Shown here piece after piece: positions 1,533 through 43,672 of a DNA stretch of 44,119 nucleotides. The stretch's first letter is position 1, and each line of letters begins with the position of its first letter. Source of the DNA: a virus; the IMG/VR virus record IMGVR_UViG_3300020129_000184, positions 1 through 44,119 of that record; one strand, written 5' to 3'. The notes beneath the pieces are model-generated. The model was not told the origin of the DNA and made no database searches. It saw only the letters and a program-made list of their open reading frames with translations. Made by a program: the position numbers and the translations under genes.

Positions 1533-2255
1533 ATGGCAGCAACAGAGCGACACACCCCGACATGGCGCGACGAATTCCCCGATTACTACGCCGTCCCCGA
1601 CGTCATCGCCACCGATCCCCAGCTCGACGACATGTCGTGGCACAACGACGTATGTCCCAGCTTCACGGCGAAGGGCTACGACAGCAGCAACGACCGCCCC
1701 GACGTGCGGTTATGGGTGGCCGCGCTCAAGATCGAGGATCGCGAGTTTCCCGAACAGCCGCGCCTGATGGTGTCGGACGGCGAGATTGTGATCCGCACGT
1801 GGGACGACGACACCGACGCGGGGCAGGCCGTCGAGCTGCTGCGCGACGTGTGCCGCAAGGCGACGGCCGGTGAGCTGACGCTCGCGGCCACGCTGCAGTA
1901 CCTGACGGACGAGGCGCTGCTCACGTTTGGACGCACGACGCGGCGTTTCAACCCCGACGAGAACGAAGCCGCGATCTACTGGGCGGAACTGCAGCGCCGG
2001 GGACTCGGTCAGGACTGGTCAACCGACGCCATCGTGTCGCGCATGAAGGTGCAGATCGCGGCCGACATCGAGTCGGGCGTGCTCCCCGCCACGGTCGCGT
2101 CGTTTCAGGATCTGCACGACTACGTGGACGCCAACGAGTACGGCGACTTGTGCACGCCGGAATGCCCCTTTGACGCTGGCGACGACGCCGACGCAGGCAA
2201 AGTGAACGCCGCGCAGGACGCCATCGACCAGTGGCTGAAAGGCGGTCGGCAGTGA
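1533..2255 (+). CDS. Hypothetical acidic protein
   Basis: 240 residues from ATG 1533, chosen because AGGCAGAG sits just upstream; the longer frame from 1476 would run through the operator region. The protein is rich in Asp/Glu and ends in an acidic segment followed by an amphipathic helix. I recognise no domain. It is the first gene after the AGCATA operator cluster and overlaps the next start as GTGA, so it likely heads a small operon running to the integrase. Confidence 0.65.
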   Translation: MAATERHTPTWRDEFPDYYAVPDVIATDPQLDDMSWHNDVCPSFTAKGYDSSNDRPDVRLWVAALKIEDREFPEQPRLMVSDGEIVIRTWDDDTDAGQAVELLRDVCRKATAGELTLAATLQYLTDEALLTFGRTTRRFNPDENEAAIYWAELQRRGLGQDWSTDAIVSRMKVQIAADIESGVLPATVASFQDLHDYVDANEYGDLCTPECPFDAGDDADAGKVNAAQDAIDQWLKGGRQ

Positions 2256-2416
2256 TCATCACCCTGACGCTGATCGCGATTGCGATCCTGTTGCTCGTCC
2301 TCGTCCTCGCCAACGACAAAGCGAAGTCCGCCCTGCTCACGACGCTGGCCGTCGTCGGCATGGTGATCGGGCTGGCGGTGTTCGGCTACCTCGTGCAGAG
2401 CGTGGTGGGTCAGTAA
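2252..2416 (+). CDS. Small membrane protein, two TM segments
   Basis: 54 residues from GTG 2252, overlapping the previous stop. Two hydrophobic stretches (ITLTLIAIAILLLVLVLA and TTLAVVGMVIGLAVFGYLV) are separated by a short polar loop with DKAK. Possible inner-membrane protein; in an integration/lysogeny block it could serve superinfection exclusion, but that is only a guess. Confidence 0.6.
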   Translation: MIITLTLIAIAILLLVLVLANDKAKSALLTTLAVVGMVIGLAVFGYLVQSVVGQ

Positions 2417-2628
2417 TGGCGATCAAAATGACTCGCGTCGAGCGCCTGTACTTCGACCTCGATCACCTCGACAACGCGGAGCACATCATCACGCAGACGA
2501 TCAAGGCGGCGGCGGACGATATCGCGGCGAGTGCCGCGAACGATCCCGACAGCCGGATGCAACGGCGCACGGTGCTGGCCGATTGCGCGTTCGATCTGCG
2601 GATGGCCGTGGGCAAGGGGGCGAAATGA
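2416..2628 (+). CDS. Hypothetical protein
   Basis: 70 residues, ATG at 2416 overlapping the preceding TAA by one base. Predicted mostly helical, without recognised motifs. The stop overlaps the next ATG as ATGA. Confidence 0.55.
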   Translation: MAIKMTRVERLYFDLDHLDNAEHIITQTIKAAADDIAASAANDPDSRMQRRTVLADCAFDLRMAVGKGAK

Positions 2629-2870
2629 AGCGCGCCCGACGTATCGCCCACGAAGTCGCGGAAGCCTCGCGAGCGAAGGTGCAGGGGACCAAACCCCGCG
2701 ATCCTCGCGAGCTGGTCGCGACCGCCCGAACCCTAGAGCGATGGCTCGCGAAGCGCCGGAAGGTCCGCAAGGAACTGCGCTTCATCGACCAGCAGATCAA
2801 GCACGAGCGGAAAATGCTCAAGGCGCTGGCCGGGGTCAACTTCGACGACAACAACGGGGGTGCACTGTGA
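2625..2870 (+). CDS. Basic helical hypothetical protein
   Basis: 81 residues from ATG 2625. Lys/Arg-rich and strongly helical (about residues 30-70 read as an amphipathic or coiled-coil helix with KRRKVRKELRFIDQQIKHER). It may bind nucleic acid. The GTGA overlap with the following RHH gene places it in the same transcription unit. Confidence 0.55.
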   Translation: MKRARRIAHEVAEASRAKVQGTKPRDPRELVATARTLERWLAKRRKVRKELRFIDQQIKHERKMLKALAGVNFDDNNGGAL

Positions 2871-3214
2871 GCGCCCCCGCTGTCCGTCGCCGCTCGTTCG
2901 AATTCAGCGCCACTGATCAGACGACCGCGAAGCGGTACCTGCTCAGTGGGATCCCCCCAGCGTTCTGGACCGCCGTCCGCGCCCGTGCACGGCGCGACGG
3001 TGTCGCCGTTCGCACGCTGATCCTCACCCTGCTGCGGCGACACCTCGACGACGAGACGCCGCCGCAGGTGTACGCCGCCGCGCCGGACTTGCTCGCCGCC
3101 GTGCGTGCGGCGGCGGCGGACCTCGACGCGTCGATCCACGGCGCGAAACCCCCGATCCACCCGATCAGGCTGGCGGCGATCTACCGTGTCGCCCTTCACA
3201 AGGCTGGTGAGTAG
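2867..3214 (+). CDS. Ribbon-helix-helix-like DNA-binding protein
   Basis: 115 residues from GTG 2867. Residues about 28-58 (IPPAFWTAVRARARRDG followed by VAVRTLILTLLRRHL) fit the RHH fold: a short strand, helix, turn, helix. Such proteins bind palindromic operators as dimers. Its place three bases before the integrase start suggests a role in integrase or excision control. The C-terminal half is Ala-rich and unassigned. Confidence 0.6.
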   Translation: MSAPAVRRRSFEFSATDQTTAKRYLLSGIPPAFWTAVRARARRDGVAVRTLILTLLRRHLDDETPPQVYAAAPDLLAAVRAAAADLDASIHGAKPPIHPIRLAAIYRVALHKAGE

Positions 3215-3216
3215 TC

Positions 3217-4737
3217 ATGGCAACGAGCGATACGACAACGTGGAAGCGATGCGCGTGCGGTGAAGCACGGTGGAACAAGTGCCGCCACCCGTGGTACATG
3301 GTCAAGTTCGTCTGGGGGACGACGCCGGACGGCACGCCGAAGGGCCACGAGTGCCAGATCAACCGCTGGGCGTTCCTATGCCTGAAGGAAACGATCACGA
3401 CACGCACGAGGGCCGCCGAAGTCGTGGAGATCATTCGCACGCGGATCCGCGACGGCTCGTACCTCACGGCCAAGGAATTCAAATCCCGGCCCGTTGAAAA
3501 AGTGGTGGTCCAGGACGCGCCCGAAAAAAATCTCGCGCAGCTCGTCGCGGACTTCGACGAGCACGAACTGAAACGGAAGTCGGTCAAGAACTGCAGCCTC
3601 AACGTGCAGCGCGATCACCGGTCCCGGCTGACGCGCCTCGTCGAGTATGAGGACTACGGTACCCGTCTGGTCGCGGCGATTAACGCCGACGCGTTGATCG
3701 ACTTCAAACAGGACGAGCTGGACGAGCTGTCCACGTCCTCGTGGCGGCAGTACTACGGGATCTATCTGCGCCTGTTTCACTTCGCGAGGCGGGAGGGGCT
3801 AATCACGGTGCACCCGCTCGACAAGCTCAAAATGGCGACGTGGCAGTGGGACGAGCTACGACGACAGAAGGATCAGCCGCGCACGCAGCGGCTCAAGGTC
3901 GGGCAGCAGGCCAAGCTGCTCCACGCCGCCCTGATCGTCGCGCACTCCAAACGGGTGACCGGCGGCAAGGGCAGCGGGGGCGCGTCGGCGCAGAGCGTGC
4001 GCTTTGCCGCGCAGCGGATGCACGACTTGATTCTGGGGGCGCTCGAAACCGGCGGACGCCGGGGCGAGCTGCTGGCGCTCCGGTGGATGGACGTCGCGTC
4101 CGGTCCCCAGCTGACGCCGAAGGACGAAGTGACCTTCGCCGCACGGGAAACGGGCGCGGCGAAAAAGGGGATCGGCCGGGGGCGGGACGTCCCCATGACC
4201 GACGACTACCGGGAAGTGCTGTTGCGGCGGCGGATCAACAAGCTGACCGGCCAGCCCTACCGCCTGACCGACTACGTGTACGGCATGGAGACGGGCGCAC
4301 GGATCGAGTGCAACAACGCGATTGCGCTGGGGTGGAAACGCACCGTCGTGATCAGCGAAGGCCACACGCCCGAAATCATGGACGGGGGGATGCTCGCGCC
4401 AGCGTCGGCGGCGATCTACCGCCACGCCGATCTGCACTTTCACGACCTCAGGCGGGAGTGCGCGTCGAGGTGGCTGGCGCTGGGGGTGAACATCAAAACG
4501 ATTTCGGTCCTGCTGGGCCACGAGAGCACCCAGACGACCGAGATCTACCTGAACGTGCGAGCGTCGTCAGCCAAGGCTGAGATCAAAGCGTTCGAAGCGA
4601 AGCGCCGGGAACTGGAAGCCGCAGCGGCGGCGGCGGGGTCTGAGCACGGCAAACGTTCGACAAACGACCGGACGCCAGACCCCACGCCGACACGTCCGCG
4701 CCTGATCAAGGGCCGCAAGTCTGGTGATCTCAAGTAG
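3217..4737 (+). CDS. int: Tyrosine site-specific integrase
   Basis: 506 residues; ATG 3217 directly follows the RHH gene. The catalytic core is intact: Arg in GGRRGELLALRW (residues 279-290), HDLRR (H409, R412), LGHES (H435) and nucleophile Y444 in TEIYLNV. An N-terminal Cys cluster (CACG near 12-15, then C22) may form a zinc site, followed by an arm-binding/SAM-like region near 105-200. It catalyses attP x attB recombination. The coding end contains one copy of an 18-bp repeat whose second copy is 261 bp downstream, as expected for arm-type sites near attP. Confidence 0.95.
   Translation: MATSDTTTWKRCACGEARWNKCRHPWYMVKFVWGTTPDGTPKGHECQINRWAFLCLKETITTRTRAAEVVEIIRTRIRDGSYLTAKEFKSRPVEKVVVQDAPEKNLAQLVADFDEHELKRKSVKNCSLNVQRDHRSRLTRLVEYEDYGTRLVAAINADALIDFKQDELDELSTSSWRQYYGIYLRLFHFARREGLITVHPLDKLKMATWQWDELRRQKDQPRTQRLKVGQQAKLLHAALIVAHSKRVTGGKGSGGASAQSVRFAAQRMHDLILGALETGGRRGELLALRWMDVASGPQLTPKDEVTFAARETGAAKKGIGRGRDVPMTDDYREVLLRRRINKLTGQPYRLTDYVYGMETGARIECNNAIALGWKRTVVISEGHTPEIMDGGMLAPASAAIYRHADLHFHDLRRECASRWLALGVNIKTISVLLGHESTQTTEIYLNVRASSAKAEIKAFEAKRRELEAAAAAAGSEHGKRSTNDRTPDPTPTRPRLIKGRKSGDLK
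4650..4667 (+). repeat. 18-bp direct repeat, copy 1 (candidate integrase arm site)
   Basis: CAAACGTTCGACAAACGA, identical to 4911-4928. Internally it is two CAAACG half-units 11 bp apart. It lies within the last codons of the integrase gene. Confidence 0.75.
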
Positions 4738-11327: not shown

Positions 11328-12575
11328 ATGAACATCGCGGTACTACAGGACGATCTGAAACGGAAGCAGGCGGCGGCACTCTCGCTGTTCGAAAAGAACG
11401 CCAAGCTAGCCGACGCGGAAAACCGCGTCACGACCGACGAGGAACGCGCCGCCGTCAAGGCGCTGGTAGACGAGGCCGAGGGGATCAAGGCACAGATCGC
11501 GAAGGCGTCGGCCGACAGCGATCAGCTCGCCGCGATTCAGCGCCTCACGAGCGGCGAAGGACTCACCCCGCTGACCGCCGCCCCGCGCAAAGGGGTGCAG
11601 CGGCTGACGATTGGGCAGCAGTTCGTGCAGTCGGCCGAGTACGAATTCTTTCGCAAGGGCCTGCACCGCGCACAATCGGCGTGGCGATCCCCCAGCGTCG
11701 AGCTGTTCGACACGATGATGGGCGCGACGTTGACCGAAGATCCCGCGTCCGGCGGGGCGCTGGTCCTGCCGCAGTACCTCCCCGGCATCCAGCCGCTGCA
11801 CTTCCGGCCGCTGCTCGTGGCGGATCTGTTCGCGCAAGGTACCTCGACCTCCAACGCCATCGCGTACATGCGGGAAAAAACCTTCACGAACGCCGCCGCG
11901 CCCGTCGCGGAAGCTGCCGCGAAACCCGAAAGCGCGATCACGTTCGAAGCGGTGACCACGCCCGTTCGCAAGCTCGCGCACTGGCTCCCCGTCACCGAAG
12001 AGATGTTGGAGGATGTCGCGCAGATCGCGAGCTACATCGACGCTCGGCTGCGGCTCGGCGTGCAGCTCGTCGAGGACGATCAGCTGCTGAACGGATCGGG
12101 CGTTGCGCCGAACCTGCTCGGCGTGCTCGCCACGCCGGGACTCGGTGCGCCCGTCGCGGTGGGTGTCGCGCCAGCGACTGCGGCCGATGCGATCTTCGCG
12201 CAGATGATGGCGCTCGCGTGGTCCTCGTTCCTGATGCCGGACGGGATCGTCATGAACCCCGCCGACTGGGGGCAGATCGCGCTCACGAAATCCTCGACCG
12301 GCGAGTATCTCGGGGGCGGCCCCTTCACGGCCGCAGTCACCCCGACGCTCTGGGGTCTGCCCGTCGCCGTGACGCCGACGATGGTTGCCAACACGGCGCT
12401 GGTCGGCGCGTTCAAAACGGGCGCGCAGTTGTTCCGGCGCGGCGGGATCCGCGTCGAAGCGAGCAACAGCCATCAGGATTTCTTCATCAAGAACCTCGTC
12501 GCGATTCGCGCTGAGGAACGGCTCGCCCTCGCGGTCTATCGTCCGGCGGCGTTCGGCACGGTGACCGGCGTCTAA
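11328..12575 (+). CDS. Major capsid protein, HK97 fold
   Basis: 415 residues. A charged helical N-terminal delta/scaffold region (about 1-85, DDLKRKQAAALSLFEKNAKLADAENR in part) precedes the HK97 fold (E-loop, A and P domains; ASGGALVLPQYL near 140, LNGSGVAPNLLGVL near 255-268). Expected to be cut after the delta region by the upstream S49 protease. No Lys-Asn crosslink pair could be verified by eye. Confidence 0.95.
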   Translation: MNIAVLQDDLKRKQAAALSLFEKNAKLADAENRVTTDEERAAVKALVDEAEGIKAQIAKASADSDQLAAIQRLTSGEGLTPLTAAPRKGVQRLTIGQQFVQSAEYEFFRKGLHRAQSAWRSPSVELFDTMMGATLTEDPASGGALVLPQYLPGIQPLHFRPLLVADLFAQGTSTSNAIAYMREKTFTNAAAPVAEAAAKPESAITFEAVTTPVRKLAHWLPVTEEMLEDVAQIASYIDARLRLGVQLVEDDQLLNGSGVAPNLLGVLATPGLGAPVAVGVAPATAADAIFAQMMALAWSSFLMPDGIVMNPADWGQIALTKSSTGEYLGGGPFTAAVTPTLWGLPVAVTPTMVANTALVGAFKTGAQLFRRGGIRVEASNSHQDFFIKNLVAIRAEERLALAVYRPAAFGTVTGV

Positions 12576-32167: not shown

Positions 32168-32274
32168 TCTGGCTCCGGCGATTCTGGCGGCGGCGATTCC
32201 CGGCGCAGGCGATGTGGATGTCGGAACGGTGGCGCGGCGATTTTCTCTACCGATCAGGACGGGGGGACGTATGA
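32164..32274 (+). CDS. 36-residue Arg/Trp-rich peptide
   Basis: 36 residues from GTG 32164: starts MIWLRRFWRRRFPAQ, five Trp in all. The GTGA overlap upstream and ATGA overlap with the RecT-like gene downstream suggest it is translated as a coupling or leader peptide. No known function; amphipathic Trp/Arg composition could associate with membranes or nucleic acid. Confidence 0.45.
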   Translation: MIWLRRFWRRRFPAQAMWMSERWRGDFLYRSGRGDV

Positions 32275-33056
32275 ATCCAACGACACCCACGACCGACAAG
32301 CGCCTTGATGTCGTCGGGACCGAGGGCGGCAAGGCCACGGTGGAGACGACGACCGCGCTGGCCCCCGCCCGACCGGAGGACAAGGACAGAGCCAAGGTAC
32401 CGGTGCGGATGGGCGTCATGCCGACGAACGTCGAGGAAGGCTGGCGACTCTCGCGGATGCTGGCCGAATCGGAAATGGTCCCGAAGGCGTTCCGCAACAA
32501 ACCCTCCGACGTCCTCGCGGCGATGCAGCTCGGCGCGGAGGTGGGATTCGGTCCCATGCAATCGCTCGCCAGCATCGCGGTCGTGAACGGCCGCACGAGT
32601 ATCTGGGGCGACGGCCTGCTGGCGTTGATCGTCGCGTCGTCGCTCTATCAGGACCATGACGAATTTTTCGAAGTCGGCGGCCAGCGCCGGGACGGCCTGA
32701 CGCTCGACGACATGAAAGCCGACACGACCGCCGCCGTCTGCACGTTCACCCGCCGCAACAAACCGATCCCGGTCACACGGCGCTTCACGGTCGGACAGGC
32801 GAAAAAGGCGCTGCTCTGGGGCAAGGAAGGCCCGTGGACGACCTTTCCCGACAGAATGTTGCAGATGAGGGCGCGAGCGTTCGCCGCTCGTGACACGTTC
32901 CCCGATCTGCTGCGCGGCATCCACACCGCCGAGGAAGCACGCGATCTGCCGCCGGTCGTCGTCGATCAGCGCGAAGTCCGCCGGATCTCCGAGAGCCGCG
33001 CCGACTTCATCGACCGCGAACCGGACACCCGTCACGACGAACCTCCCGCAGCGTAA
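32271..33056 (+). CDS. RecT-family single-strand annealing protein
   Basis: 261 residues from ATG 32271. The RecT pattern is visible: VLAAMQLGAEVGFGPMQSLA then SIAVVNGRTSIWGDGLLALI (about 80-125), and TFPDRMLQMRARAFAARDTF near 193-212. RecT proteins coat single-stranded DNA, form helical or ring filaments and anneal complementary strands, working with an exonuclease such as the PD-(D/E)XK protein two genes on. It lies about 2.1 kb upstream of the pentamer array in the same orientation. Confidence 0.88.
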   Translation: MNPTTPTTDKRLDVVGTEGGKATVETTTALAPARPEDKDRAKVPVRMGVMPTNVEEGWRLSRMLAESEMVPKAFRNKPSDVLAAMQLGAEVGFGPMQSLASIAVVNGRTSIWGDGLLALIVASSLYQDHDEFFEVGGQRRDGLTLDDMKADTTAAVCTFTRRNKPIPVTRRFTVGQAKKALLWGKEGPWTTFPDRMLQMRARAFAARDTFPDLLRGIHTAEEARDLPPVVVDQREVRRISESRADFIDREPDTRHDEPPAA

Positions 33057-33068
33057 GGGGACGCGGCT

Positions 33069-33308
33069 ATGTGGACGGACCCCGATCATCCGTGGGAGCG
33101 CATCATTGCCGACGAGACGGCGCTCGACCACGCCCGTGCGAAAGCGCGGGGACTCCGGGCGATGGAGATCACCAATCTCGTGCTCTGCGCCCTCGACGGT
33201 CACGCGCTCGTGAGCGATCCGGCGCAGGCCCGTGTCGTGATCTGGACCGCCGTCGCGGAATCGCTGTACGGCCTTGCCGCCGTGGACATGCCGAGGATGC
33301 CGCGATGA
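33069..33308 (+). CDS. Hypothetical protein in recombination module
   Basis: 79 residues, starting MWTDPDHPWERIIADETALD. Helical; the segment after residue 30 (ITNLVLCALDGHALVSDPAQ) has no recognised motif. ATGA overlap with the nuclease gene. Confidence 0.6.
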   Translation: MWTDPDHPWERIIADETALDHARAKARGLRAMEITNLVLCALDGHALVSDPAQARVVIWTAVAESLYGLAAVDMPRMPR

Positions 33309-34075
33309 CGATCCCGGCACTCGTCCTCGAGGCCAGCCGATTCGATCCGGCGTTGTTCACCTTCGATCCGACCGGCCACGTCTACAAGTACGACGGCCAG
33401 CCGATCCGCTCGGTCACGCAGATCCTGAAAAAGGTCGGCCTGATTCCGCCCTTCGAAGATTTCGTCCCGCCGTACGTGCTGGGTCCGGCGCTCGCACGGG
33501 GGACAGCGGTCCACCGCGCCATTCACTATTGGAACGAGCGCGATTTGAACCTGCAGGAATTCGACGCGACCTTCCCAGAGTGGGCGGGGTATCTGCGCTC
33601 GTGGATCCGGCTGCTCGATTCGGGACGGCTGCAGACGTTGGCCTGCGAGCAGCGCGTGATCTCGCTGGCTCCGCGCTTCGCCGGCACACTGGATTGGATC
33701 GGCACGTTCGACAACCACGCCGCCATCCTCGACTATGCAACCGGCGATCCAGAGGACGTCTGCAAACATTTGCAGCTGGCCGCGTACGTGCTGGCCGCTC
33801 GGGCTACCGCTCTGGTCAGTGCGGGATCCGGATTGCTCAAAACATTTTTCGAGCGGCACAACCATATTCGCCGTTTCGCAGTAAGGTTGTCCCGGTCGGG
33901 TGGTCTGCCGCAGCTGACCGCCTATGATGATCCCCGCGACTTCAGCAAGTTCCTGCTGATCGCGGAGTCCGTCAACGTCGTGGATATCGAGCGCCCGAAA
34001 TCAATCACGTGGAACTGGAGAGCTGATCACACAACCACCGAGGAGGAGCAGTCATGGCAAAGCGTGCACCCGTAG
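33305..34075 (+). CDS. PD-(D/E)XK nuclease-like protein with Lys replaced by Ala
   Basis: 256 residues from ATG 33305. Matches the RecB/Cas4-like nuclease fold: GTAVHRAIHYW (H70), E115 in ACEQRV, GTLDWIG (D130), then ILDYATG where the usual D-x-K motif reads D143-Y-A145, and QLAAY (157-161). The invariant Lys of this motif is Ala (codon GCA). Either the enzyme is inactive, or another residue substitutes (K154 in CKHLQL is nearby). By location it should be the exonuclease partner of the RecT-like protein. Confidence 0.78.
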   Translation: MTIPALVLEASRFDPALFTFDPTGHVYKYDGQPIRSVTQILKKVGLIPPFEDFVPPYVLGPALARGTAVHRAIHYWNERDLNLQEFDATFPEWAGYLRSWIRLLDSGRLQTLACEQRVISLAPRFAGTLDWIGTFDNHAAILDYATGDPEDVCKHLQLAAYVLAARATALVSAGSGLLKTFFERHNHIRRFAVRLSRSGGLPQLTAYDDPRDFSKFLLIAESVNVVDIERPKSITWNWRADHTTTEEEQSWQSVHP

Positions 34076-34791
34076 TCGAACCCGCAACACCCGCCCCGCC
34101 GGTCGAATCCAAATCTCCCGCGCAGCTCTGGACGTACTACGATGTCGTCTGGGATTTTCTCACCAGCGTGTGCGGCAGTACTCCCGCCGATCCGGAAATC
34201 GTCGAAGCCTGGTTGAAGGCCCGACAGCCTCGCGTGAAACCCGCAGGCGCGTTGTCCATCGAAGAGATCAACGAGGAAGTCCTTGCCAGCATCGAGCGCG
34301 GCGAAGGCGAACCCGATCAGTCGTACAGCCTGCTCGTGTTCCAACACGATCCGCAGGGCCACTGTGTGATGCGGTACTCCACGATTCGAGCGCACATCAA
34401 GGATTGCGCTCGCGTCCTGTCCGCCCAGTTCATCGGGCGCGTGCAGGGCGAACGCGCCTTTAGTACCAGAGTGATCAACGGCGTGTACCTCGATCCGAAA
34501 CGGTACTGGATTCCGCTGGAGCGGCCGGACGGCACGATGATCACGAAGCCGGACGGCGCTCGGGACAAAGCGGTGCACGTGCGCGGTCCTCGTGGGGAAA
34601 CGCTGAACGCGTTGAAACGGATCGAATTCATCGAGCCGCCCTGCCGGATGCGATTCACCCTGCAGGTGCTCGGCCGATCAGTGTCGGAGACGGATCTCGA
34701 TCACGTGTTCTCGTACGGGAGTGTTCACGGCTATGCCGGCGAGCGCAGCGACGGGGAGGGCCGCTATGAATTCCAGATCACGCGGCGCTGA
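34054..34791 (+). CDS. Phage protein reminiscent of RAMP/Cas7 proteins
   Basis: 245 residues from ATG 34054, with an excellent GAGGAGGAG ribosome site. The shape GSTPADPEIVEAWL, a HDPQG turn, STIRAHIKDCARVLS, VRGPRG and a C-terminal GSVHGYAGERSDGEGRYEF recalls a widespread uncharacterised phage family whose Gly-rich end (GxG...GxGRFE) resembles RAMP/Cas7 RNA-binding proteins. This likeness is from memory of the pattern and needs a structure search. It sits directly upstream of a small helical gene and the 2-kb pentamer array. Confidence 0.5.
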   Translation: MAKRAPVVEPATPAPPVESKSPAQLWTYYDVVWDFLTSVCGSTPADPEIVEAWLKARQPRVKPAGALSIEEINEEVLASIERGEGEPDQSYSLLVFQHDPQGHCVMRYSTIRAHIKDCARVLSAQFIGRVQGERAFSTRVINGVYLDPKRYWIPLERPDGTMITKPDGARDKAVHVRGPRGETLNALKRIEFIEPPCRMRFTLQVLGRSVSETDLDHVFSYGSVHGYAGERSDGEGRYEFQITRR

Positions 34792-34807
34792 TCGTCGAGG
34801 CGGATCG

Positions 34808-35125
34808 ATGCTCCGCGAGAACGCCCCGCAGTTGCGGACGGCGGAAAAATTGATCGAGAAGCACGAGCAGATCGCGGACGCACTGGAGCACGGATCGATC
34901 ACGCCGAAAACGGCGGAGCAGCTCAATCAATCCCTGAAAGGGATCGTCGGGATCGAGCGGCTCGGCATGTCGTACCTCAAGCTGGCGCTGGCCTTCGGGA
35001 AAAAAGCGCCGGTCCCGCGCACGCCGATCCTGCGGTCGATGATCGGTCTGCCGGTGGAACTGTCGCCGCACGATGGCGAACAGGTTCGGGCGCTGTTGCC
35101 GGACGGCGGCGACAGCAAGAAATAG
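34808..35125 (+). CDS. Small helical hypothetical protein before the array
   Basis: 105 residues from ATG 34808, with GAGGCGG upstream. RTAEKLIEKHEQIADALEHG and TAEQLNQSLKGIVGIERLGM suggest a helical bundle, followed by a Pro-rich segment. The array described next begins within about 25 bp of its stop codon, so the two may be co-transcribed. No recognised family. Confidence 0.6.
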   Translation: MLRENAPQLRTAEKLIEKHEQIADALEHGSITPKTAEQLNQSLKGIVGIERLGMSYLKLALAFGKKAPVPRTPILRSMIGLPVELSPHDGEQVRALLPDGGDSKK

Positions 35126-35150
35126 CACGGGGCCGCTCGCTGCCGATGCC

Positions 35151-37168
35151 GGTGGCGAGCGGTCAGCAGCGGGGTGACGTCGAGTAGTGCCGCGCACCGG
35201 GGTGGTCAGTCGTCGAGTGGTGTTCGGAGGCGTGGCGATGATCGTCGCGAGGCGCGCTGTCGTCGAGTGGCGTACTCGTTCTGGACCGTAGTGCGGTGGA
35301 CCGGGGATGGGATGCCGTCGAGGTGCGTGGCGAGCGGTGGTGCCCTGACGTGTTGCGGCGGCGAGTAGTGGCGTGGCGTGGTTCGTGGTGAGGCGTCGTG
35401 GTTGCGGCGTCGAGATGCGGAACGAAGCGCGCTGAACAGGCGCGGCGTGGAGTGCTGTCGAGGCGCGTAACGATGGGCGGCGTGCGGTGGTGCCGTGTCG
35501 TCGAGTTGCGTGGAGTAGTGGTCCCGTTCTGCCGTCGAGACGCGAACTGCAACGGGGTGACCGGGGGCGTACTGCCGTCGAGTTGTGCAGTGACTCGTTG
35601 TGACTGGTCCTGAAGTGTCGTCGAGTTGCGTAGTGTAAGGGCCGGTCGTGTCGTCGAGGCTTGTGGCGTGGCGTAGCGAAGCGAAGTGGTGTCGAGGGCT
35701 GCGGGGGCCTGTTGCGCCTTGTGCTGCTAGGGCCTGAGGTGCCGTCGAGAGCTGTGGAGTCGCGTAGGGTTTTGTTCGGGCTTGTCGTGGCGTCGAGCCG
35801 CGTTGTGCCGTGGCGTGAGGTGAGGCGGTGCGTTGCGTTTCGTCGCGACGTGATCGGACGTCGAGCAGCGAGCAGGGGTGATGTGAGCGGGGGACGCCGT
35901 GCGGGGTGGTGCCGTCGAGTTGTGAGTGGGCGTGTCGTGGGGCGGGGTGATGCGGCGTGTCGTCGAGTTGTGACTCGTCACGAATCGTCGTGCCGTCGTG
36001 GTGAGGTGCCGTCGAGTCTCGTGGCGTAGCGTAGTGGCTTTGTCGTGCCGTGCAGGGCCGTCGAGAATCGAATCGATCCGGAGCGAGTCGTATCGGAGTC
36101 GAGGTGCGCTCTGTTTCGCGGGGGCGTGTAGCGATCTGCCGCCGAGGGGCGATCAGGGATGCCAAGGGATGCGGGGCCGTGGAGTCGAGTAGTGACGCGA
36201 TGGCGTGGCGTGGTGAAGCGTCGTCGAGAAGCGAACGGGATGGGTGCGCCGGGGATTGTTTCGATGTGCCGTCGAGCCGTGGAGCGAGTCGCGCTGTTGT
36301 CAGCTGGCGTGTTCCGTCGTGACGTCGAGCATCGAGATGACTGGGCGTGTCGTGAAGTCGAGTTGTGTAGGGCGGTGTCGCGAAGTGATGGGATAAGCGG
36401 TGGCTCGTTGTGTCGTCGAGAAGTGGCCGGGACTGCGGGGATCTGAAGTCGAGAGGTGGAGCGGCCTTGTGGTGGCGTGGTTTGCCCTGCTGTCGAGATG
36501 CGTAGCGGGGCGACGTGGTGCGAGGGGCCTTGTCGTCGAGAAGTGTAGTGACTGGGTGCGAGGTGCCGTGTTGTCGAGTCTCGTCGTGAGGGGAGTTGTC
36601 GTGTCGCGGTGCGACCGAGGGACGATCAGCAGCGGTCAGGCGTGATCGGTTTCGTCGTGCAGTCGAGGGGCGATATTCATTGCGCTGAGAAGATTCGGCG
36701 TGCGGTGACGTCGAGGGACGAGCAGTTGTGGTGAGGTTCGGTGTGCAGTCGAGTAGCGTCGTGGCGTCGTCTGGCGTGGCGTGCAGTCGAGAGGTGACCG
36801 GGGACGTCCGGACCTGACGTCGAGGGGCGGCGTGGTTTGCCCTGTCATGACATGACGCGGTTTGACGTCGAGTAGTGGAGCGTGGCGAATAGGATCGTTC
36901 GGCGGTGCGGTGACGTCGAGGCGTGCGGTGAAGGGCAGTGCCGGGATTCGTCGCGTGGTGTCGTGTCGTCGAGGGGCGAGCAGTGTCAGGACGTGACGTC
37001 GAGTAGTGATGCGGCGCGATGTGTTCTGCCGTGGCCGTCGAGAATCGAATCGATATGCCGGGACTCGTTGCGGGGTGTCGTGTCGTCGAGAAGCGATGTG
37101 ACGTGGCGTGAGGCGCGACGGCGTGGCGTCGAGCAGCGTGGAGCAGTGATCTGTCGTGTAGTGAAGTG
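35151..37168 (+). repeat. Pentamer-phased GTCGAG array (novel element)
   Basis: About 2 kb without a convincing gene, running from just after the 34808-35125 stop to the start of the next gene. GTCGAG occurs 42 times on the plus strand, from 35179 to 37128, with degenerate copies at 35360 (GGCGAG) and 36141 (GCCGAG); I saw none in the opposite orientation. Of 43 spacings, 31 are 5n+3 (33, 38, 43, 48, 53, 58 or 68), nine are 5n+4, three are 5n, none 5n+1 or 5n+2. Inside each unit the bases fall into blocks of five that almost always end in G, often as NNGTG or NNGCG: TCGAG-(NNNNG)n-NNG. The plus strand is G/T-rich (35881-35940: G 32, T 13, C 10, A 5). Single-base insertions explain the 5n+4 cases. 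Function unknown. Confidence 0.95.
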
Positions 37169-37174
37169 GACTCT

Positions 37175-37888
37175 ATGGATCTCAGTCCTGAAGTAGCGCG
37201 GACGGCCGGAAGCGAGCTGGCGGAAATCTCCATCTCGCTCGTCCGGCAGCTCGACACCGACCTGACGATCCACGACGTCATGCAGCTGGAGCACGCCGTT
37301 GAACGCCGCCAGCAGCTCGGCACGCAGATCGCTCGTGTCGAAGCGTTTTTCGAGGAACCGATCAAGGCCGCCCACACCACACATAAGCTGCTCTGCGACC
37401 GCCGCCGGGAAATCATCACGCCGTTGCAGGTATTCGATCAGCGGCTCGTCGCCGCGATCAGCGAATTTAAATCAGCGGCCGACCGCGAGCGCGAAGCACG
37501 CGAACGCGAGCAGGCCGATCAACAACGCCGCGACGAGCAGGCGCGTGCCGCTGCCGAAGCCGCCGCGCTGGAATCCTCCGGCGAGCCAATCCTGGCCGAG
37601 GCCGTGATCGCGGAATCAATTGCGCGGCCGATGCCGGTCGTCGCGTTGCCGGACGTCACGCGGGTCAGCGGTCTGCAGTTCCGGCGGTACTTCCGCTGGC
37701 GCGTGGCCGGGGGACCGAACGAGATCAAGCTGACGCCGCCGCTCGTGCTCGCACGGGCGCTCCAGCTGGTGCCGCGAGAATTCCTCTGCCTCGACGAGAA
37801 AAAGCTCACGAAGTACGCGGCGGCGATGCAAGGCTCCGCGAAGGTTGCGGGGATCGAATTCTATTTCGTGGATACTCCGGTTCGATGA
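37175..37888 (+). CDS. Coiled-coil protein after the array
   Basis: 237 residues from ATG 37175 (GTG 37166 also possible). Two helical regions: VMQLEHAVERRQQLGTQIAR and a long charged coiled-coil near 95-135 rich in Arg/Glu/Ala, then a C-terminal alpha/beta domain (about 160-237, FRRYFRWRVAGG...). Such proteins occur in phage recombination/replication clusters, but no family is certain. No clear Shine-Dalgarno precedes it because the pentamer array runs up to its start. Confidence 0.7.
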   Translation: MDLSPEVARTAGSELAEISISLVRQLDTDLTIHDVMQLEHAVERRQQLGTQIARVEAFFEEPIKAAHTTHKLLCDRRREIITPLQVFDQRLVAAISEFKSAADREREAREREQADQQRRDEQARAAAEAAALESSGEPILAEAVIAESIARPMPVVALPDVTRVSGLQFRRYFRWRVAGGPNEIKLTPPLVLARALQLVPREFLCLDEKKLTKYAAAMQGSAKVAGIEFYFVDTPVR

Positions 37889-39736: not shown

Positions 39737-39810
39737 TCGTCGAGCTGATCCTCGTGGCCGTCGTCGTGGTCGTGGCCGCGCTCGTGATTGCGGAATGGCG
39801 GCGGGGATGA
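39733..39810 (+). CDS. 25-residue single-TM micropeptide
   Basis: From GTG 39733, overlapping the previous stop as GTGA and the RusA start as ATGA. Reads MIVELILVAVVVVVAALVIA then EWRRG: one transmembrane helix with a basic cytoplasmic tail. Too short for routine annotation but precisely coupled on both sides. Confidence 0.5.
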   Translation: MIVELILVAVVVVVAALVIAEWRRG

Positions 39811-40283
39811 TTCGCTTCACCGTCTACGGGATCGCGAGCGGCATGGGGTCCAAACGGGCCTTTGTGCCGAAGGGCTGGAAGCGCCCGATCATCACCGACA
39901 GCAATCGCAATCTCAAAAGCTGGCAGAGCCTCGTGGCCGACGCCGCCTCGCAGGCGATTGCGAATCGGCCCGACTGGCAGATCCTTGAGGGCGGCGTGCG
40001 GCTGTCGCTGGAATTCTTTTTGCCGCGCCCGAAGTCGCTCGCGAAAAAGATCACCGCGCATCTCAAAGCGCCGGACACGTCCAAGCTCGTGCGGAGCACC
40101 GAGGACGCCATGTCGGGGATCGTCTACCGCGACGACTCGCAAGTGATCGAGCTGCTCGCGACGAAAGCCTACACCGGCACAAACGATCCGCCGCACGTCC
40201 ACGTGCGCGTCGAGCCGACGTCCGGCATCGAGCGCGTGTCCGTCCCCGCCGCTCCGCTGCCGCTCTTCGGAGGGCCGTCGTGA
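39807..40283 (+). CDS. rusA: RusA-like Holliday-junction resolvase
   Basis: 158 residues from ATG 39807. The conserved acidic cluster is present: APDTSKLVRSTEDAMSGIVY followed by RDDSQVIEL (D90, D100, D109/D110), with Lys in KAYTG. Resolves recombination/replication junctions before packaging. The adjacent DNA methyltransferase overlaps as GTGA. Confidence 0.88.
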   Translation: MIRFTVYGIASGMGSKRAFVPKGWKRPIITDSNRNLKSWQSLVADAASQAIANRPDWQILEGGVRLSLEFFLPRPKSLAKKITAHLKAPDTSKLVRSTEDAMSGIVYRDDSQVIELLATKAYTGTNDPPHVHVRVEPTSGIERVSVPAAPLPLFGGPS

Positions 40284-40951
40284 CGCCGTACTACGAGCAC
40301 GCCGGGATCACGATCTACCACGCCGACTGCCGCGATCTGATCGAGGACTGGGAAGGGCTGCGGACGAAAACGTTCGATCTGCTGCTCACCGATCCGCCGT
40401 ACGGGATCGACACGTGGTCCGCGAACACGACCGGCGGATTTATGAGCGTCCAGGCCGCTCGTGAAATTCGCGAATGGGATCGCTGCCCTGAGGCGGCGTT
40501 GCTGCGCCGGTTGATTGCGATCTCTCGCGTGTCGGTGATCTGGGGCGGCAACTATCTGGCGGACATACTCGGCCGCTCACGAGCGCCGTTGATCTGGGAC
40601 AAGGCGCACCGGGGGATGCATTTCGCAGACGGCGAAATGGCGTGGACGAATTTCGACTGGGGAACGATGCGGATCTTTTCGCTGCGCCTCGTGGACGGCG
40701 ACACGAAGGGAACCGGCATCCGGCTGCACCCGACACAAAAACCCGAAGAGCTGATGATTTGGTCGATTCGGCAAGCGAAGAATCCGCAGCTCGTGCTCGA
40801 TCCGTTCATGGGATCCGGCACGACGCTGGTCGCGTGTAAACGCCTGCGCCGGCGCTGCGTCGGAATCGAGATTCAGGAACGCTACTGCGAAATCGCCGCG
40901 CAACGCCTCGCGCAGGAAGTGCTGCCGCTCGAGCTGGAGGCGACGTCGTGA
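40280..40951 (+). CDS. DNA N6-adenine/N4-cytosine methyltransferase
   Basis: 223 residues from GTG 40280. Motif IV DPPY (38-41) precedes motif I DPFMGSGTT (174-182), the beta-class order, followed by VGIEIQERYCEIA. Likely protects phage DNA from host restriction; no cognate restriction enzyme is recognised. The recognition site cannot be read from sequence. Confidence 0.9.
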   Translation: MTPYYEHAGITIYHADCRDLIEDWEGLRTKTFDLLLTDPPYGIDTWSANTTGGFMSVQAAREIREWDRCPEAALLRRLIAISRVSVIWGGNYLADILGRSRAPLIWDKAHRGMHFADGEMAWTNFDWGTMRIFSLRLVDGDTKGTGIRLHPTQKPEELMIWSIRQAKNPQLVLDPFMGSGTTLVACKRLRRRCVGIEIQERYCEIAAQRLAQEVLPLELEATS

Positions 40952-41484
40952 TCCCGTATCTCATCGCGCACGTGATCACGCTGACGCCGTCCGAACTGTT
41001 GATCGCTGGCACGGTCGGCGTGTCGCGGTATGTCGAGAATCTCCGCACGCACCGACACCCCGGCCGCGCCGACACCGGCCGCAACACCGTGACCGGTCAT
41101 CTGCTGCACACGCACATCGACGGCGCGTGCGGCGAAGCGGCCTTCGCGAAGGCGATGGGCGTCTACTGGAATGGCGACGTCGGGGACATGTACGCGCCAG
41201 ACGTCAACGGCTGGCAAGTCCGCACGACGACGCGCCTCGACGGCAAGTTGATCATCCGGCACACCGACGCCGACGAGGCGCGACACGTGCTCGTGCGCGG
41301 CCGTTGTCCGGCGTTCCAGATCGTCGGCTGGATCGAAGGCCGGATCGCGAAGTCACCCGAATGGCTGGAGAGTCCCGCCGGACGACCGGCGGCGTGGTTC
41401 GTGCCGGACACCGCGCTGCACCCGTTCGCGCTCTACCGGGATTCCGAGCCGCCGCCGCCGTTGTTCGATGACTGTCCGTACTAG
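40948..41484 (+). CDS. Putative PD-(D/E)XK-like phage protein
   Basis: 178 residues from GTG 40948, overlapping the methyltransferase end. HIDGACGEAAFAKAMGVYW, then DVNGWQVRTTTR, resembles a recurring phage protein with a nuclease-like core (GxxGExAxAKxL...D.xxxQVR). Whether it is an active nuclease is uncertain because the D-x-K motif is not clear. Its place behind a methyltransferase would suit a companion nuclease. Confidence 0.5.
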   Translation: MIPYLIAHVITLTPSELLIAGTVGVSRYVENLRTHRHPGRADTGRNTVTGHLLHTHIDGACGEAAFAKAMGVYWNGDVGDMYAPDVNGWQVRTTTRLDGKLIIRHTDADEARHVLVRGRCPAFQIVGWIEGRIAKSPEWLESPAGRPAAWFVPDTALHPFALYRDSEPPPPLFDDCPY

Positions 41485-41496
41485 GGGAGGGCTGAC

Positions 41497-42021
41497 ATGT
41501 TTGCACCTGACACGCCGATGACGCTCACCGATGTGACCTTCACGACCGAAGTCGAGGACGAAGAGACGCGGCGGATCGTCGTCTGCACGTTCGCGATTGC
41601 GCCGTTCACCTCGTCGCACGCCGACGAGCTGAACATCCGATCCGTGCTCTTCGACATTGCCACCGGTTCGCTCAAGCCTGCCGTCGCGGCGGTCACCGCG
41701 TTGATCAGCCCGGAGGATCAGCGGCTCACGTTCGCCATGACGCCCGACCAAGGGGATCGCCGGATCGTGTTGCCCAACGTCCGCATCGAGCCGAAGCTGA
41801 AGGCCAAGATCAAACACGACCGCGAGCCTGCCGTGTGCGAGGCGCTGATCAAAATCAGCTTCAGTTACCCGACCGCCGATCAACTGCTCTACATCGCCAA
41901 CGGTGTCAACGATACGCATTACCTCACGTTCGAACCCGAACAGCTCGATCTGCTCACGGCCGAGGACGACAACGAATCGATTCGCAAGGGGCGCTCCCAT
42001 GCCGCAGCCACGACGCACTGA
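41497..42021 (+). CDS. Hypothetical protein (small beta-rich)
   Basis: 174 residues, GGGAGGGC ribosome site. Beta-rich first half (LTDVTFTTEVEDEETRRIVV), KIKHDREPAVCEALIKISFS near the middle. No recognised family. Confidence 0.62.
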   Translation: MFAPDTPMTLTDVTFTTEVEDEETRRIVVCTFAIAPFTSSHADELNIRSVLFDIATGSLKPAVAAVTALISPEDQRLTFAMTPDQGDRRIVLPNVRIEPKLKAKIKHDREPAVCEALIKISFSYPTADQLLYIANGVNDTHYLTFEPEQLDLLTAEDDNESIRKGRSHAAATTH

Positions 42022-42205
42022 CGACCTCGACCAACGCAACGCGGACCACGCGACCGAGATCTACCTGCTGATCGGCGCACCCGAAGCCGTCGCCCTCACG
42101 TGCGGCTTCGTGCCGCTCACCGTGCGCGAGCAGGCGCGAGCGGCCATCGACTGGGAACACTGGGCGAGCCGTCGTCCTCGACGACGGAACGGCGGCCGAC
42201 GATGA
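41999..42205 (+). CDS. Hypothetical small protein
   Basis: 68 residues from ATG 41999, overlapping the previous 3' end. Acidic helical start and Arg-rich C terminus (SRRPRRRNGGRR). Function unknown. Confidence 0.5.
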   Translation: MPQPRRTDDLDQRNADHATEIYLLIGAPEAVALTCGFVPLTVREQARAAIDWEHWASRRPRRRNGGRR

Positions 42206-42333
42206 AACGCCTGCCGCTCTACTTCTGGCTGTTCGCGTATTGCCCGGAGCCACTGCTGCCGCTGCTGAAGTGTTTCCCCCGGCGCTGGCGTGCGCGGCAG
42301 ATCCAACAGTTCCTGACGGGTGGCAAACGATGA
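42202..42333 (+). CDS. 43-residue membrane-associated peptide
   Basis: From ATG 42202, coupled by ATGA overlaps on both sides. MKRLPLYFWLFAYCPEPLLP then basic RRWRARQIQQ: aromatic amphipathic, possibly membrane-associated. Confidence 0.48.
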   Translation: MKRLPLYFWLFAYCPEPLLPLLKCFPRRWRARQIQQFLTGGKR

Positions 42334-42560
42334 CGATCACCGAAGCGGCCAATCGTGCGCGTGAAATCTGGGGCGCTGGCCGATTCTTTTCGGTGCAGCT
42401 GCGGCAGGACGGGGGCGCGGACGTCACACTGCTGCGGACGTTCCTCGCCAGCGACGTACGCGGTCGCACGTTCACGGCGCATCGTCTGAGCGCCAGCGGT
42501 CGGCCGATCTGTCACGTCGATTGCGAATCGCTCGTCGTCCAGGACGCGACGAAATCGTGA
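42330..42560 (+). CDS. Hypothetical protein
   Basis: 76 residues from ATG 42330; overlaps the methyltransferase start as GTGA. Beta-strand-rich with Arg/His. No recognised family. Confidence 0.55.
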   Translation: MTITEAANRAREIWGAGRFFSVQLRQDGGADVTLLRTFLASDVRGRTFTAHRLSASGRPICHVDCESLVVQDATKS

Positions 42561-43672
42561 GCGCGTACTACAACGAAAACGATCCCCACATGGCCGCGTG
42601 GATCCGTCAGTTGATCACACAGGGAGCGTTGCCGGATGGCGAAGTCGATACCCGATCAGTTGTCGATGTTCAACCCGACGACGTCCGAGGATTCGATCAC
42701 TGTCACTGGTTCGCCGGCATCGGCGGATGGGCGCACGCGCTTACCCTTGCTCGATGGCCTGCCGCTCGACGCTGCTGGACCGGCAGCTGCCCCTGTCAAC
42801 CGTTCAGCGTGGCGGGACGAGGCGCGGGTACCGACGATCCCCGCCACGTTTGGCCTGCGTGGTTTTCGCTCATCCGCGAGTGCCGACCTCCAGTCGTGTT
42901 TGGTGAACAGGTTGCGAGCGGTGACGGATTGTACTGGCTCGATCTTGTTCTCGCTGACATGGAAGGTGCTGAGTACGCCATCGGGCGCGTCGTGCTCCCT
43001 GCTGCGTGCGTCGGCGCTCCGCACGGGCGACACCGCCTCTACTTCGTGGCCGACGACCACCGGCCGCGACGGGACGAGCAGTCGGCGGCACGGCTACATG
43101 GACAAGGGCCATCCGGGGACGACACTCCACGACGCGGCACTGCTGGCGAGCTGGCCGACATGTCAGACGAGGGACGGGAATCGAGGCGGACAAGCGAAGC
43201 GCACGACGACCGGCCGCAGCAATCTCGACGACCACGCGATGCTGGCGGGAGCGTGGCCGACGCCGATAGTCCCGAACGGCGGACGCTCGTCGAACCCGGA
43301 GACGATGACCGCCACGGGACAGACGACCGATGGACGGAAGCACACCGTGACGCTCGAGCACGTGGCGAAGTTCGCGACATGGGCGACACCAACACCCCGC
43401 GATCACAAGGACGGCGACTGCACGACACAACTGGAACAGGGGACGATCCCGATCAACGCGCTACTCGGTCGGCAGGCGTTGCTGACTTCTGGAACGAGGC
43501 CGAGTGGATCCCCTGCCTCGACGGGCGGTCGCGGCCAATTGAACCCGGAACATTCCCGCTGGCTCATGGGGTACCCGCCCGTGTGGTCAAGTTGCGCGGC
43601 TACGGCAACGCAGTTGTTGCGCCACTCGCGGCGATCTTCGTGAGCGCGTACATGGAGCTGGAACGGTGGTGA
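42557..43672 (+). CDS. DNA cytosine-5 methyltransferase
   Basis: 371 residues from GTG 42557. Motif I FAGIGGWAHAL (52-62), motif IV CPCQPFSVAG with catalytic C80, motif VI as GEQV (usually ENV), motif VIII GAPHGRHRLYF, and the C-terminal GYGNAVVAPL. The target-recognition segment (about 180-330) is Asp/Arg-rich with repeated (V/L)AD-x-D-like units. In another frame the same DNA encodes a 335-residue open frame with WPTP-like repeats (separate entry). Protects phage DNA or supports regulation. Confidence 0.9.
   Translation: MSAYYNENDPHMAAWIRQLITQGALPDGEVDTRSVVDVQPDDVRGFDHCHWFAGIGGWAHALTLARWPAARRCWTGSCPCQPFSVAGRGAGTDDPRHVWPAWFSLIRECRPPVVFGEQVASGDGLYWLDLVLADMEGAEYAIGRVVLPAACVGAPHGRHRLYFVADDHRPRRDEQSAARLHGQGPSGDDTPRRGTAGELADMSDEGRESRRTSEAHDDRPQQSRRPRDAGGSVADADSPERRTLVEPGDDDRHGTDDRWTEAHRDARARGEVRDMGDTNTPRSQGRRLHDTTGTGDDPDQRATRSAGVADFWNEAEWIPCLDGRSRPIEPGTFPLAHGVPARVVKLRGYGNAVVAPLAAIFVSAYMELERW
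42636..43643 (+). CDS. Overlapping frame with WPTP repeats inside the C5-methyltransferase gene
   Basis: 335 residues, ATG at 42636, in a different frame from the methyltransferase. It begins MAKSIPDQLSMFNPTTSED and contains LTWKVLSTPSG, SWPTTTGRDG, SWPTCQTRDG, AWPTPIVPNG, TWATPTPRDH, and ends LNPEHSRWLMGYPPVW then Ser/Arg-rich. I recall proteins with exactly this SWPTP...LNPxxSRWLMGYP layout annotated as hypothetical or methyltransferase-linked in other phages, which suggests both frames are conserved. Translation is not shown by the sequence. Confidence 0.5.
   Translation: MAKSIPDQLSMFNPTTSEDSITVTGSPASADGRTRLPLLDGLPLDAAGPAAAPVNRSAWRDEARVPTIPATFGLRGFRSSASADLQSCLVNRLRAVTDCTGSILFSLTWKVLSTPSGASCSLLRASALRTGDTASTSWPTTTGRDGTSSRRHGYMDKGHPGTTLHDAALLASWPTCQTRDGNRGGQAKRTTTGRSNLDDHAMLAGAWPTPIVPNGGRSSNPETMTATGQTTDGRKHTVTLEHVAKFATWATPTPRDHKDGDCTTQLEQGTIPINALLGRQALLTSGTRPSGSPASTGGRGQLNPEHSRWLMGYPPVWSSCAATATQLLRHSRRSS

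Follow-up and report, generated by a model that had tools for sequence, protein, structure and literature searches.

The window, that is, the whole 44,119-base stretch of viral DNA analysed here, is a virus record of the temperate siphophage type with TerS, integrase, TerL, portal, protease and capsid genes; the integrase gene (3217-4737) separates the gene for the small terminase subunit from that for the large one. The region of interest is a row of features on the plus strand. It comprises genes for a RecT-like annealing protein (32271-33056; Pfam RecT, E = 8.8e-6; PHROG 561, E = 8.6e-40) and a PD-(D/E)XK exonuclease (33305-34075; PF12705, 3.2e-6; phrog_298, 6.7e-17), separated by a small open reading frame (33069-33308), then the genes for two proteins designated P245 (34054-34791) and H105 (34808-35125), a strong hairpin (35131-35164), a long array (35157-37168) and a gene for a coiled-coil protein of the phage recombination module (37175-37888; phrog_10477, 2.1e-8). 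The order and common strand given in the preliminary description were borne out, with the addition of the small reading frame, which was absent from its row. The RecT and exonuclease genes were treated as neighbours outside the system described below, and the coiled-coil gene as a neighbour. Further downstream (39795-43643) are genes for a RusA-like resolvase (39795) and two DNA methyltransferases (40280 and 42636). A 737-residue open reading frame on the minus strand (35206-37419) was set aside as a gene, its length being ascribed to the scarcity of CTA, TTA and TCA on the plus strand.

P245 had been described as reminiscent of RAMP proteins, and structure prediction upheld that impression. 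The AF2 model (pLDDT 78.6, pTM 0.69) was searched with Foldseek; the top matches were all Cas7 proteins of type III or type VII systems (E = 1.7e-7), and 127 matches fell below 1e-3. Comparison with Cas7 of type VII/Csm3 gave a Z score of 14.1 over 167 residues at 5.5 A, and with Csm3 alone 13.2 at 2.9 A over 148 residues, which places the predicted fold among the Cas7-fold RAMPs (Z about 14). Neither Pfam nor PHROG contained a matching family; a search of GenBank phages returned one weak match and a search of plasmids none. The C-terminus (HGYAGERSDGEGRY in the window) is nearly invariant among homologues (YGxxHGxxxERxxGxGxY) and in our reading fits the glycine-rich loop of RAMP proteins.

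The H105 model was entirely helical and a fold search with it gave no match. Homologues were present in 31 of 55 non-redundant P245 loci and in none of the searched loci that lack P245, and H105 is likely to be an accessory protein (a candidate vap) of the system. Between its stop codon and the first array unit, the segment 35126-35185 folds at -32.9 kcal/mol (z = -2.15), and the hairpin may serve as a leader or processing signal.

The array (456 bits) is built of units with the grammar NCGAG, then (NN-G/N-Y-G)n, then a terminal NNG. In the window each unit has 4-15 pentamers, mostly 5-9, and G occupies position 3 in 62% of pentamers. The word TCGAG occurs 43 times on the plus strand of the array, its complement CTCGA not once, and 27 of the 42 spacings between successive copies are 3 mod 5. 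The preliminary description took TCGAG for a nucleation word; its recurrence is real, and it is better described as a separator between guides. Dynamic-programming parsing resolved 416 blocks, 364 of them pentamers with G at position 5 in all but four (360/364), together with 37 trinucleotides that nearly all stand immediately 5' of the following TCGAG. The parse score of 347 compares with a mean of 102 (sd 17, maximum 162) for 100 third-order Markov copies; copies of lower order did not exceed 162 either. Lag-5 excess was at least 0.096 inside the array and at most 0.047 in 825 windows outside it, and GC skew reached +0.28 to +0.37 in the four windows of 500 bases covering most of the array, with the rest of the cluster near zero. 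Since conservation is of syntax only, the array was missed by tandem-repeat software. No match was found among GenBank phages by blastn, and Rfam gave nothing for 30-40 kb at E up to 1, with no hammerhead seen. Nor was any recurring structured 3' tail seen, and three window units folded like their own shuffles.

The array was then sought in other viruses, in loci designated here by L numbers. A DNA-pattern scan of viral contigs, made without P245 as a query, returned 55 stretches, 14 of which carried an array of the same type beside a P245 homologue. With a P245 profile as query, viral contigs then yielded 64 loci and a Phycisphaerales MAG one; removal of ten duplicates, addition of the window and the MAG and omission of L046 left a set of 55 non-redundant loci. 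An adjacent array of at least 30 bits lay on the same strand in 47 of these 55 loci and on the opposite strand in none, and L046, outside the set, likewise has both P245 and an array. Contig GC at array loci ranged from 0.34 to 0.69. Of the eight loci below threshold, three are affected by contig ends (L126 and L127 stop inside the P245 gene, L090 shortly after it), L074 has an array of 23 bits, L118, L119 and L125 have arrays that are visible but AT-rich, and L117 retains a remnant only.

Pooled over the family arrays, 4,280 pentamers were near uniform at positions 1 and 2, with G at position 3 in 48%, T or C at position 4 in 91% and G at position 5 in 98%. The array of L106 is without flaw, with 179 pentamers, 23 trinucleotides and zero irregular blocks. 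Identical P245 genes were mostly accompanied by identical arrays, those of L111 and L112 differing by one unit and one base, while for P245 pairs that were 79-86% identical no long alignment of their arrays was obtained. Four loci (L084-L087) have four to seven separate arrays along one contig, one of which adjoins P245. On the Phycisphaerales MAG chromosome (L128:10600-10900), P245 is accompanied by an array in which the separators are ATCGGCG instead of NNG-NCGAG.

The remaining stretches from the pattern scan were of several kinds. About 18 of the 55 were rejected as 15-nt coding repeats that imitate the pattern; in L017, L018, L045 and others these repeats are open in frame as pentapeptides. 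L025 proved to be the end of the P245 contig L065. An array of the same kind was seen at L058:3444-3650, on a 9.8-kb contig from which P245 is absent; upstream of it (2120-3082) is a ParB-like gene by our reading of the open reading frame. Other period-5 arrays, with TC/CC-NN-G pentamers, were seen at L014:5751-8075 (with recurring AAGTTTATAAGAAA stretches), L023:6954-7565 and L063:9348-11520, and are perhaps another type of gapped-guide array. The rest of the stretches had no array at 30 bits. Separately, L021:3826-6225 was noted to hold a long array, rich in GC, in which the words TTGCG and TATG recur in units of about 24 nt.

Phage RAMP proteins with pentanucleotide GGY/NN guide RNAs have been reported under the name VIPR (Viral Interference Programmable Repeat), the guides reading DNA with one base skipped per NN, a rule that was tested by experiment (bioRxiv 2026, PMC13142463); a literature search found VIPR reported in that preprint only. 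Its one-nucleotide-skip rule led to a decoding test of the family arrays. Guides from non-redundant arrays were reduced to their NN letters and slid, with one target base skipped, over all loci (3.2 Mb). The first run showed an excess at period 3. With the arrays masked, 4 of 152 guides had a match below 1e-10 when letters 1-2 were read at period 3; other periods at these letters and three shuffles gave none, and other letter pairs gave none except one case (letters 3-4, period 3). When the NN of the terminal trinucleotide was included, 5 of 214 guides fell below p = 1e-10 and four below 1e-11, whereas six shuffled sets gave zero at both levels; by our arithmetic about 0.14 of 214 guides would be expected below 1e-10 by chance. 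For the other 209 guides the 3.2 Mb of sequence contained no match below 1e-10. Two window guides were also searched for exactly in 2.9 million viral contigs, without a hit. A match of 14/14 letters between a window unit and the exonuclease gene of L057 was set aside, being about at chance level by our arithmetic.

In all five best groups the skip fell on the third codon position of the target gene; where a longer stop-free frame lay on the other strand, the reading frame used was that of the named gene. A sixth group of matches (L068, p = 1.2e-10) was not wobble-phased, the skip falling at codon position 1 of the plus-strand frame. The terminal trinucleotide agreed with the next codon of the target in four of the five groups (L072, CCG; L075, ACG; the window, ACG; L094, GAG or GAA); for L068 it matched in one of the five relatives listed at 19/20.

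The targets of the five best guides are conserved sites within coding sequence of other phages: P245 genes, genes for major head proteins and one ParB/methyltransferase gene. A guide of L072 matched a head gene of L189 at 22/22 letters and one of L075 a head gene of L170 at 21/22. A guide of L068 matched the capsid gene of many relatives at 21/22, so named because the homologous site in the window lies in its capsid gene. The window guide at 35798-35860 has a probable target in a ParB-like/methyltransferase gene of three related phages (L234, L253 and L254) at 23/26 letters, that is, with three mismatches. The head and ParB names come from annotation of the target loci other than L253.

The fifth guide, from L094, reads CA.GG.TA.GC.GG.GA.CG.AG.GA.GG when decoded; these are the letters at codon positions 1 and 2 of HGYAGERSDG, a peptide that we read as the glycine-rich loop of P245. 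It matched at 20/20 letters the P245 genes of the window, L066, L067, L069, L071/L035 and L079, or at 22/22 with the trinucleotide; in the window the site is at 34726-34758 on the plus strand and also has the GA of the terminal trinucleotide. With up to two mismatches allowed there were 34 such places, contigs present as two loci being counted twice. The P245 gene of L094 itself encodes the same peptide through AGA TCC and is three letters off its own guide, a single case that suggests self-escape by codon choice. Self-escape was not clear for L068, in which the phage's own capsid site matched its guide at 18/20, the same as the window's capsid site (12489-12518, minus strand).

Taken together, the Cas7 fold of P245, its linkage to the array in 47 of 55 loci, the skip-decoded guides in excess of shuffles and the wobble phasing of the skips argue that the array very probably consists of tandem guide RNAs for P245 in a VIPR-type system. 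Points on the other side include the GYG/NN scaffold, the absence of a visible 3' tail and the majority of guides without a match. As a working model, the array would be transcribed, along with P245, and one P245 subunit would bind each pentamer through the G-Y-G scaffold, so presenting each NN for pairing with DNA; binding would, by analogy, repress the rival gene. The phage would thereby act against its competitors, with rivals' copies of this very system among the targets. Expression, processing and activity of the array are presumed in this model.

It is improbable that the array RNA instead serves a P245 filament passively, as scaffold or sponge, with free NN letters and no guide role. 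The near uniformity of the NN positions and the many guides without a match in 3.2 Mb would suit such an RNA, but it leaves unexplained why five guides have decoded targets, exact or nearly so, at p<1e-10 and with wobble skips, when shuffled guides yielded none.

Less probable still is that the array, phased to a 5-nt footprint, serves the RecT-like annealase as a recombination hotspot or as a loading site on single-stranded DNA. The RecT gene does lie a few genes upstream, and the RecT footprint of about four to five nucleotides cited in the preliminary description has a true precedent, LiRecT being reported to bind DNA at 5 bp per monomer (PMC9772228). However, profile searches of 53 P245 loci, the window among them, which averaged about 13 kb and had limited flanks such that distant copies could be missed, matched RecT in three, two of them weakly, the exonuclease in two and the coiled-coil protein in three, with the window in each count. 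Conversely, no array was found in seven loci selected for RecT or in one selected for the coiled-coil protein, and among relatives selected for TerL or portal an array was present in 1 of 151 loci, that one on a P245 contig. Since RecT is rare in P245 loci and arrays are rare near RecT, TerL and portal genes, RecT appears to be a neighbour by phage gene order and not a partner. The co-occurrence anticipated earlier thus holds for P245 and the array but not for RecT, the exonuclease or the coiled-coil protein, and in the sequence searched arrays do occur without these neighbours, the very situation that the preliminary description had named as counter-evidence. A RecT hotspot also fails to predict decodable guides; a gapped guide code accounts for the phasing that had been said to suit a protein filament, and the 5-nt period fits the other suggestion made at the time, a fixed step of a Cas7-like protein along the transcript. 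The system in the window is best read as a variant form of VIPR and not as a recombination hotspot. Finally, a decayed pentanucleotide microsatellite without function, which the period of 5 and local repeats of pentamers such as GCGTG might suggest, is scarcely credible given near-uniform positions 1-2 beside 98% G at position 5 and linkage to one gene across contig GC of 0.34 to 0.69.

A gapped RNA guide code has been proposed as older than CRISPR, and these results lend it independent, purely computational support from a further clade that uses a different scaffold. With arrays of this size, phage-phage warfare may be readable from sequence, in that who targets whom can be decoded, and the guide directed at the glycine loop of P245 suggests that this weapon is turned on the copies carried by rival phages.

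Short phased motifs with one copy per protein subunit are known from DnaA-trios and TRAP binding sites; these differ from the present array in having no guide role, and the proteins are unrelated. Cas7/Csm3 of type III and type VII CRISPR-Cas systems share with P245 the fold (Z about 13-14) and the glycine-rich loop, and those systems share the multi-unit guide array, but here the step is 5 nt rather than 6 nt and the guide letters are confined to NN. The array has neither the long identical repeats nor the contiguous spacers of CRISPR-Cas, and no Cas genes were recognised among the scanned open reading frames.

The closest likeness is to type II VIPR of SUSP1, for which pairing with DNA and repression of rivals were shown by experiment (PMC13142463). 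Both have a phage-encoded minimal RAMP, a small accessory gene (here the candidate H105), pentanucleotide repeats with hypervariable NN, a one-nucleotide skip on the codon wobble (seen here in computed matches) and targets in rival phages as well as other VIPR systems. Of the features that define VIPR, P245 has, in its model, the RRM core and G-loop of a virus-encoded RAMP; the locus has the minimal layout of vipr, vap and long intergenic repeat, if H105 is the vap; and computed matches point to one-nucleotide-skip recognition of targets in competing mobile elements and other VIPRs. The repeat has the period of 5 and the NN with a G/N-Y-G scaffold, compared with GGY/NN in SUSP1; a "related consensus" is mentioned for some VIPR types (PMC13142463). 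SUSP1 has 9-16 YNNGG repeats and a conserved structured 3' tail in four RNAs of about 100 nt (PMC13142463), whereas here no tail was seen and each guide ends in NNG and is set off from the next by NCGAG, with 43 separators in one 2-kb array. Comparison of P245 with the candidate SUSP1 Vipr, itself chosen by position and repeats, gave no significant sequence similarity (hhalign of the P245 profile, E = 0.18). The clade may be a distinct VIPR type, a proposal to which we give slightly less than an even chance as a whole; it would be marked by the GYG/NN scaffold, arrays of dozens of guides delimited by NCGAG, the extra terminal trinucleotide, an arms race at the glycine-loop motif of rivals' vipr genes and self-escape by an Arg/Ser codon swap (AGA TCC for CGN AGY).
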